DNA of 64,000 nucleotides, taken from assembly GCF_025460835.1 (NCBI RefSeq), contig NZ_JAMXAY010000022.1:1-64000 (forward strand), given 5' to 3'. Position numbers and translations under genes: made by a program. The notes under the pieces are model-generated. The model saw only the letters and a program-made list of their open reading frames with translations, had not been told where the DNA came from and ran no database searches. Positions within the stretch are counted from its first letter, which is position 1, and the number at the start of each line of letters is the position of its first letter. Source of the stretch: Parapedobacter soli (GTDB lineage: Bacteria > Bacteroidota > Bacteroidia > Sphingobacteriales > Sphingobacteriaceae). Of the stretch, positions 36,858 to 44,699 are shown piece by piece.

Positions 36858-37370
36858 ATGAAAATTAAATTGACGTTATTGGCCCTGTTTGCTGCATTTG
36901 CTTTCACGGCATCTGCACAGAGTGATTACAAGAACTCTATCGGTCTCCGGTTGGGTGGCGGCTACTATGATCTGATCGGTGCGGCCTTCAAGACTTTTAT
37001 TTCTGAACCTGCCGCGTTGGAGTTTGACTTGGGTTTCAAGCCAAGCATTGGTTATGGAATTTACAGTGACGGGATTACTAACCTGTCATTATCCGGTGCC
37101 TATCAGCATCATTTTCCCATCGGTAATATCGAAGGGTTTAAATGGTTTGTAGGTGGTGGTGCTATCATTGCCAACACGTTTTCTGATTATGAAGATTGGG
37201 GTGGTGTTTCAATCGGTATTTTCCCTACCGGTGGGGTGGATTACAAACTGAAGAATGCGCCGTTTGCATTTTCTGCTGATTTGAGACCTACTGCACACTT
37301 CGTGAAGTCTTATGGTGGTATCAACGGGTTCTTATTCAATAGCGGCTTGACAGCCCGTTACGTATTTTAG
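36858..37370 (+). CDS. small outer membrane beta-barrel protein
   Basis: 170-aa exported protein. Sec signal MKIKLTLLALFAAFAFTASAQ, then an 8-strand-size barrel with Gly/aromatic alternation (IGLRLGGGYYDLIGAAFK, WFVGGGAIIANTF) and a C-terminal phenylalanine (GLTARYVF) that suits BAM recognition. Function unknown, and similar in size to the protein at 12489-13028 but with little shared sequence. Monocistronic: own promoter and a strong terminator. Confidence 0.82.
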   Translation: MKIKLTLLALFAAFAFTASAQSDYKNSIGLRLGGGYYDLIGAAFKTFISEPAALEFDLGFKPSIGYGIYSDGITNLSLSGAYQHHFPIGNIEGFKWFVGGGAIIANTFSDYEDWGGVSIGIFPTGGVDYKLKNAPFAFSADLRPTAHFVKSYGGINGFLFNSGLTARYVF

Positions 37371-37401: not shown

Positions 37402-37439
37402 ATTGCCATTGGTTGCTGAAGCCAATGGCAATTTTTTTT
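37402..37439 (+). terminator. intrinsic terminator of the barrel-protein gene
   Basis: Perfect 11-bp stem ATTGCCATTGG / CCAATGGCAAT (37402-37412, 37422-37432), 9-nt loop, followed by a run of eight T (37432-37439). Confidence 0.94.
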
Positions 37440-37478
37440 AGTGCCTATGCCGAGACCTGTATGGTACGAGCGGTGGTA

Positions 37479-37534
37479 GCCCATGCCCCTGAGACGGGCC
37501 GGGCATGGCTAAGCTTTGGCTAAGGCCATGCCCG
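37479..37534. repeat. competing GC-rich hairpins
   Basis: CGGGCATGGC (37500-37509) pairs perfectly with GCCATGCCCG (37525-37534) around a 15-nt loop. The same left arm can instead pair with AGCCCATGCCC (37479-37489) with a one-base bulge. There is no gene here; frames that cross the region are composed of low-complexity peptide. Confidence 0.65.
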
Positions 37535-37543
37535 CCGGGTGTT

Positions 37544-37686
37544 CGAGTGGCCGTCGGCTGCCCTTCGACAAGTTGCCGAAGGGCAGCCGAACCGTTCCCG
37601 AACAATTCCCGAAGCAGTCTCGAAGGATTGTCGAAGGATTGTCGAAGGATTGTCGAAGGCCACTCGAACAACTGTCGAACAACTGG
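37544..37686. repeat. 11-bp phased repeat array, 13 units
   Basis: A CG-starting 11-mer recurs with exact 11-bp spacing at 37544, 37555, 37566, 37577, 37588, 37599, 37610, 37621, 37632, 37643, 37654, 37665 and 37676. The last ten all begin CGAA. Three central units are identical (CGAAGGATTGT, 37621-37653), and the others diverge after CGAA. Since 11 is not a multiple of three, the array is not built as a protein repeat. The period is close to one helical turn. Confidence 0.85.
37554..37590. repeat. 14-bp perfect inverted repeat
   Basis: TCGGCTGCCCTTCG (37554-37567) and CGAAGGGCAGCCGA (37577-37590) are exact reverse complements with a 9-nt loop. It lies at the left end of the 11-bp array and shares its phase. 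Confidence 0.85.
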
Positions 37687-37731
37687 CAGCGATTGGCAGT
37701 GATTTATGCCAAATGCTGCCAATTACTGCCA
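37684..37731. repeat. 16-bp imperfect inverted repeat at the right end of the array
   Basis: TGGCAGCGATTGGCAG (37684-37699) pairs with CTGCCAATTACTGCCA (37716-37731) at 14 of 16 positions, around a 16-nt loop. Each arm itself contains two TGGCAG copies. Confidence 0.7.
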
Positions 37732-37883
37732 AAAGTTGAAGCGGGGCTTTTGTCCACCTACGTTTGTGACCAGAAAGCAAATGGTGATTTACATTGGTGG
37801 CGGTGTATTGGCCAGCGTTTAAATCAAAAAATAACCATACATTTAACACCAATTTTACATGCTATGAGTAAAATCAAAATGAT

Positions 37884-37998
37884 ATGTTCTACGTTGCCTA
37901 TATATTCGGTTTCTTTGCGCTGGCCATGGTGGCAAACCTGTTTTTTTGTGCTGTTCGTGTTGCCGGAAACCAAGAATAAGTCGCTGGAACAACTGTAA
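37884..37998 (+). pseudogene. C-terminal remnant of a sugar MFS transporter
   Basis: From 37884 the frame reads MFYVAYIFGFFALAMVANLF, then needs a one-base shift in a T7 run (37941-37947) to continue FVLFVLPETKNKSLEQL and stop at 37998. This is the last helix and the PETKxKSLEE-type tail of a sugar porter. Nothing upstream encodes the other eleven helices, so this is a leftover of a transporter gene once in front of the aldolase and dehydratase genes. The array and hairpins sit where the gene should be. Confidence 0.7.
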
Positions 37999-38021
37999 AA
38001 GAGCTGAGTGGCCAATAAGAT

Positions 38022-38636
38022 ATGACGAAAGAAGAAATTATAGCAAGGATACAAACGGAACGGCTTATCGCCATTGTGCGGTTGGCTGAAGAAGCCGAAG
38101 TGTTGCCTACGGTGTCGAGGCTGGTGGCTTCCGGCGTACGCGTATTGGAAATAACGAGCAATACGCCTGGTTACGGCCAGGCCATCAAGCAGGCACGGAC
38201 GGAATTTCCGGATGTGTTGATCGGCGCTGGGACGATACTGAATGATACCCTGGCAGACGAAGCCCTGTCGTTCGGTGCCCAGTTCCTGGTTACGCCTAAC
38301 ATGAATATTGACGTAATCACAACGGCGCATCGCAACGGTGTTCCCGTGGTGATGGGAGCGCTGACGCCCACGGAGGTAGCTGAAGGGATAAATTATGGCG
38401 CCGATTTCATCAAGCTATTCCCGGCATCGGTAATGGGGCCGGCCTACCTGAAGGCGCTCCTTGGCCCTTATAACGGTATACGGGTCATTGCCGTGGGTGG
38501 CGTAGACTTTTCCAATGCCGGCGACTGGTTCCGTGCCGGTGCGGTGGGTGTGGGCATGGGCGGGAGCCTCCTATCGGACGATCCAACAACCATTAGCCAG
38601 TCCATCACTAAATTGCACCATACTTTCGAATCATAA
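38022..38636 (+). CDS. eda: bifunctional KHG/KDPG aldolase family protein
   Basis: 204-aa cytoplasmic class I aldolase that splits 2-keto-3-deoxy sugar acids (phosphates) to pyruvate and an aldehyde. Schiff-base Lys131 in DFIKLFPAS; RLIAIVRL, VLEITSNTPG with the catalytic Glu, and GAGTILN are all present. It is followed after 6 bp by a galactonate dehydratase gene, so it probably acts as the aldolase of a galactonate or related sugar-acid path (DgoA role). No kinase gene for the phosphorylated route is in the window. Confidence 0.92.
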   Translation: MTKEEIIARIQTERLIAIVRLAEEAEVLPTVSRLVASGVRVLEITSNTPGYGQAIKQARTEFPDVLIGAGTILNDTLADEALSFGAQFLVTPNMNIDVITTAHRNGVPVVMGALTPTEVAEGINYGADFIKLFPASVMGPAYLKALLGPYNGIRVIAVGGVDFSNAGDWFRAGAVGVGMGGSLLSDDPTTISQSITKLHHTFES

Positions 38637-44557: not shown

Positions 44558-44593
44558 GGTGTAGGTGTAGGTGTAGGTGTAGGTGTAGGTGTA
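44558..44593 (+). repeat. hexanucleotide tandem repeat GGTGTA x6
   Basis: Six perfect copies of GGTGTA directly after the GH78 stop codon. Copy number is likely to vary between strains. On the minus strand it would code for Tyr-Thr repeats, but that frame belongs to a degenerate gene. Confidence 0.95.
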
Positions 44594-44699
44594 GATTGTC
44601 CGGATGGACAGTGAATGACAGGGGTGGAATTTTAAGCCGCTGGCTTCGGTGGTAGGAATGGGAGCAATAGAGTTTAATGGGCCTGGAATTCGAGGAATT

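Follow-up and report, generated by a model that had tools for sequence, protein, structure and literature searches.

Phased 11-bp CGAA arrays in Parapedobacter soli and related bacteria: a possible orphan copy of a DUF6266 upstream control region

The window, a stretch of 64,000 nucleotides of Parapedobacter soli DNA, contains an array of 11-bp units with a CGAA core. The best explanation for the whole, in which we place about as much belief as doubt, is that the control region found upstream of a DUF6266 (PF19781) gene is present here as an orphan copy, with the arrays acting as a protein-binding operator. The window element aligned with G000:C89:5643-5925 at 79% identity over 305 bp and with C100:43244-43467 at 84% identity over 224 bp. 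The C89 copy lies directly upstream of a DUF6266 gene, 165 bp away, and the alignment showed that it has in common with the window copy the CGAA array, a 10-bp TGGCA/TGCCA array and the putative promoter box TACGTTTG. Since a KDPG aldolase gene, and not a DUF6266 gene, directly follows the window copy, it was called an orphan and not a functional member. No HTH_17 gene was found beside the window copy.

Array anatomy and locus in the window

Ten CGAA tetramers start at 37577, 37588, 37599, 37610, 37621, 37632, 37643, 37654, 37665 and 37676, with a strict spacing of 11 bp. When the whole window was scanned at periods of 9, 10, 12 and 13, no register held more than three. The first-pass annotation had described thirteen 11-bp units, three of them identical. 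The register, the ten CGAA and the three identical units (TCGAAGGATTG, spanning 37620-37652) were confirmed, while the three leading units keep the register but are inverted, with TTCG at 37542 and 37564 and a degenerate unit in between. Therefore, the array as a whole is an inverted repeat of unequal arms, short on the left and long on the right, a point missed in that first reading. The features are collected in Table 1.

Table 1. Features of the phased element, in window coordinates
Feature	Position	Strand	Basis
Left arm, inverted TTCG units in 11-bp register	37536..37568	-	Repeat and register analysis
Right arm, ten direct 11-bp units with CGAA core	37576..37685	+	Sequence, register scan
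Central palindrome, 18-nt arms, 94% complementary, 1 nt apart	37554..37590	.	Repeat analysis
Second phased array, 10-bp spacing, TGGCA twice then inverted TGCCA three times	37684..37731	+	Sequence, repeat search, alignment
TACGTTTG, matches TAnnTTTG	37759..37766	+	Sequence; conserved in DUF6266-bearing copies
Whole element, homologous to the region upstream of the contig C89 DUF6266 gene	37472..37782	+	Alignment

It had been proposed that CGAA would be shown on one face of the helix at every turn. A turn of B-DNA is 10.5 bp, and 11 bp is slightly more than one turn. The spacing is thus close to one turn, but each further unit shifts the face by about 17 degrees. In the 10-bp array, most columns are conserved at about 90% or more among the aligned type A copies. 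The arrays of the type A copies and of the window are followed by TAnnTTTG, the -7 box of Bacteroidota.

The window copy is intergenic. A secreted-type protein gene ends upstream at 37370, and the KDPG aldolase gene, the next conserved gene, starts at 38022. Synteny comparison indicated that the element is at a lineage-specific rearrangement junction, because three sister species lack the array and have another gene immediately after the upstream gene and its terminator. In those species, the gene after the terminator reads like an ATP-binding NadR-like protein. The synteny breakpoint in the window covers 37437-38000, where the aldolase gene is preceded by the array and by a short frame that ends in LPETKNKSLEQL and may be a remnant of a sugar transporter. 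Farther along the window, at 44558-44594, there is a perfect hexanucleotide repeat, GGTGTA, in 6.2 copies.

Distribution and conservation of the array family

A genome-wide search for four consecutive CGAA-N7 units gave 41 matches and the reversed-pattern control gave 0, so the array pattern is not due to chance. The genome of the window holds six arrays (contigs C93, C89, C100, C13, C101 and C134), and many more occur in relatives; the array is thus not unique. Their distribution is patchy: at the strict pattern, arrays were present in 6 of 9 Parapedobacter genomes, while in the family as a whole 19 of 121 genomes had them, and in the phylum 5 of 395. When named genomes were scanned, those with comparable arrays included Sphingobacterium, Olivibacter, Daejeonella, Pedobacter and Chryseobacterium. 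A repeat family confined to this lineage, as first suggested, is therefore too narrow a description, although the family itself exists. Pattern matches outside Bacteroidota resemble unrelated simple tandem repeats and were excluded from the family; the tally of 150 arrays does include such matches, mostly as single-orientation arrays.

P. lycopersici carries about 22 copies of an element of about 220 bp at unrelated intergenic sites, some of them preceding genes that look like dnaK and rplC from their first residues. Its genome (G001; loci L242-L263) is 3.6 Mb, and the elements share a GCAAYGSRTTGC-like centre. In addition, 11-bp arrays that are nearly palindromic and made of GAACNATCGAA-type units occur in the rumen MAG RUG737 (Bacteroidales; L077, L085, L087, L088, L091, L103, L115 and L131), several of them at the ends of contigs.

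Most CGAA arrays are not near DUF6266, and the arrays of P. lycopersici stand against a single DUF6266 gene in that genome. The element thus also behaves as a dispersed repeat, and since the arrays have spread to intergenic sites without DUF6266, it can propagate on its own. The main rival of the operator model starts from this behavior: the element would be a non-autonomous dispersed repeat, REP- or MITE-like, with the array as its body, grown by slippage or unequal exchange, and a phase without function. The P. lycopersici copies agree with this, as do the three type A copies of the window's genome, which lie in unrelated surroundings, the position of the window copy at a synteny breakpoint, the length differences between aligned copies, which are whole 11-bp units, and the precedent of BrickBuilt (PMC4596501). 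We nevertheless consider it unlikely, though worth serious attention, on account of conservation, polarity, ends and the DUF6266 loci described below. Identity to the consensus in the CGAA columns is 0.94 for P. lycopersici, 0.91 for type B and 0.96 for type A copies; within the same span, the remaining columns reach 0.71, 0.78 and 0.73, respectively. The core is thus conserved far above the rest between diverged copies. Core and spacing are kept while the rest of the unit drifts, just as had been noticed from the window alone. Moreover, the 18 aligned P. lycopersici copies have no sharp conserved termini.

Where an array has separate runs in both orientations, the order is TTCG-centre-CGAA in 70 of 70 cases and never the reverse, which also speaks against the mobile repeat. 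Most distances across the centre are 12-13, 22-24, 44 or 55 bp, values close to multiples of the unit length. To our knowledge, such a fixed polarity is not known from BldC or Xis operators, which counts against the operator model.

The inverted architecture would also suit an element that acts as RNA, whose transcript would form a long hairpin. Because 11 bp make one turn of A-form RNA, the repeated UUCG/CGAA pairs would all lie on the same side and would serve a double-strand-binding protein or an attenuator. The window array gave a folding z of -7.8, and the P. lycopersici copies gave values from -3 to -8. Against it, the forward arm alone gave a z of -0.08, the arms are very unequal in many copies, and arms of the same copy pair hardly better than arms taken across copies (p=0.04). 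The type A arrays lie upstream of the promoter box, and an Rfam search gave no match. On balance, this reading appears improbable.

The first-pass annotation had placed the array outside any gene. This holds for the window copy, while some related arrays are part of a leader that is open and apparently translated. The genes concerned are of TonB/TlpA type and were found in Parapedobacter, Sphingobacterium and Olivibacter. Their long open leader contains the array in frame, and its other frames have many stops; about 50-285 codons precede the array, and the leader runs in frame into the signal peptide (L229, L230, L232, L233, L234, L239, L240, L060, L124, L142, L147, L149, L150 and L176). Several of these loci have an XRE-type HTH gene divergently upstream. 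These leaders would fit a coding or phase-variation repeat, in which gain or loss of 11-bp units shifts the frame of the downstream gene, and unit changes are indeed whole units. Yet the copies of the window, of DUF6266 loci and of P. lycopersici lie for the most part outside such genes, and the units are too diverged for easy slippage; the coding repeat applies to the TonB/TlpA-type leaders only, and as an account of the window array it is very improbable.

Clusters of 11-bp repeats are bound by filament-forming proteins in ParR/parC-like systems. This general resemblance was counted for a domesticated chromosomal partition or replication site, with ParR/parC-like repeats or iterons. Many copies per genome at unrelated sites are at odds with such a site, no match was obtained in plasmid or phage records, and no recurrent par or rep gene was found next to the arrays. 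We give it hardly any weight, the least of the readings considered. A search of viral records likewise gave no match to the array. The RNA-hairpin, mobile-repeat and slippage readings explain parts only.

Phased arrays at DUF6266 genes

Regions of 420 nt upstream of 90 DUF6266 genes from genomes of the family were analyzed for 11-bp self-similarity, with a threshold above the 99th percentile of local single-base shuffles. Self-similarity above threshold was found in 61% at lag 11, 39% at lag 22 and 18% at lag 10, percentages that are not independent observations, because the loci are related by descent. The lag-11 controls gave 3% farther upstream, 1.9% upstream of 269 other genes and 0/30 downstream of DUF6266. 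Arrays serving as transposon ends would be expected downstream too, and this candidate was rejected on the last control. Pairs of CGAA/TTCG numbered 58 at spacing 11 against 0-8 at other spacings, and 16 loci had at least two spacing-11 pairs, compared with none in the control.

The arrays lie at a similar position across loci, typically about -170 to -115 relative to the gene, but the motif varies by gene (for example ATTCAAATCCG, GCTAACAGGGT, TTTTCATCGTA or TATAGGG). One mobile element cannot explain why most DUF6266 genes have phased arrays whose sequences are unrelated. Inverted copies often follow the direct units; such a copy, with at least 10/11 matches, was seen in 12 of 53 arrays. In other Bacteroidota families, most of the 14 DUF6266 genes tested show a 10- or 11-bp array, and one such locus (L388) has three direct and three inverted units. 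For the five-unit DUF6266 arrays, the clumping of conserved columns was not significant, and thus neutral duplication may account for them.

An HTH_17-type (Xis/BldC-like) gene was found just upstream, on the same strand, at 13 of the 90 loci, C89 among them; no HTH gene common to all 90 was found. The presence of HTH_17 tracks the 10-bp arrays (7/13 vs 8/77, p=0.0009) and shows no association with the 11-bp arrays (p=0.12). Therefore, no protein was assigned to the CGAA array. Upstream of a type A array, the encoded HTH protein has a weak match to phrog_66 (excisionase and transcriptional regulator).

The DUF6266 promoter context and the linked Xis/BldC-like genes make a protein-binding platform, already suggested in the first-pass annotation, the best-supported of the putative mechanisms. 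The arrays would be the operator of a small winged-helix protein (HTH_17, Xis/BldC-like), of which one protomer would bind per unit, head to tail, and the resulting cooperative filament would bend the DNA and switch the adjacent promoter. The arrays are taken as filament operators because BldC, Xis, Apl and RdfS bind or assemble head to tail on direct repeats one turn apart (PMC5859096, PMC7498355, PMC11963761): BldC protects 5-bp tracts one DNA turn apart (PMC5859096), Apl occupies five to seven repeats spaced 10-11 bp apart and acts as a promoter repressor (PMC7498355), and filament formation is described for RdfS (PMC11963761). By this analogy, a protein probably binds the arrays, would be of this type and would regulate the promoter.

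A wider form of the operator model can be put forward only tentatively, namely that each Bacteroidota DUF6266 gene has its private phased 10- or 11-bp address, read by a family of filament-forming winged-helix proteins, and that the CGAA version escaped and spread free-standing with fixed polarity. If true, the DUF6266 family would be a natural collection of operator/regulator pairs that shows how such proteins choose their repeats.

Comparison with known systems and DUF6266 neighbors

OmpR/PhoB-type boxes usually comprise two or three repeats. In such boxes, e.g., those of PhoP (PMC4832192), a direct 7-bp motif and a 4-bp spacer give the same 11-bp spacing, but no response regulator gene recurs beside the arrays described here. 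The operators of BldC, a MerR-like protein of Streptomyces, are closer in several respects, with a variable number of direct repeats one turn apart, a short conserved tract per unit and a location at promoters (PMC5859096), and HTH_17-type genes lie upstream of some DUF6266 arrays. However, BldC sites are few AT-rich repeats (AATTxxxxC), whereas the arrays here reach 12 units with a CGAA core, have an inverted arm of fixed polarity and a different motif for each DUF6266 gene, and their binding is predicted. The Xis/Apl/RdfS sites (PMC7498355, PMC11963761) are alike in the five to seven direct repeats of Apl at 10-11 bp spacing, in head-to-tail assembly and in a dual role as regulator, a likeness to which the phrog_66 match adds; they differ in that no integrase or attachment site was found beside the arrays here, nor any match in phage records.

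Among repeat families, the BrickBuilt MITE of Porphyromonas gingivalis (PMC4596501) is likewise a dispersed intergenic Bacteroidota element built on a tandem array, with about 20 copies per genome. In contrast, its unit is 23 bp, it has IS5-like terminal inverted repeats, and inverted arms or helical phasing have not been reported for it. The TAACTGA heptamers of Beggiatoaceae, Cyanobacteria and some Bacteroidetes (PMC4679880) are also direct repeats upstream of genes, changing by whole units and suspected to be binding sites, but their 7-bp units adjoin each other, share one motif and mostly sit beside start codons.

A literature search found neither a mention of DUF6266 nor a description of phased arrays before DUF6266 genes, and structure prediction from two sequences gave a mean pLDDT of 45, too poor for a fold search. 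If the wider model is true, DUF6266 would gain its first functional handle. Downstream of DUF6266 there is often a gene for a small membrane protein, a CHAP-domain protein, a small lipoprotein or DUF5675; taken together, these neighbors resemble a lysis cassette of the phage type. Lysis-type gene groups of this kind were observed downstream of DUF6266 at L287, L290, L294, L296, L300, L306, L312, L313 and L314.
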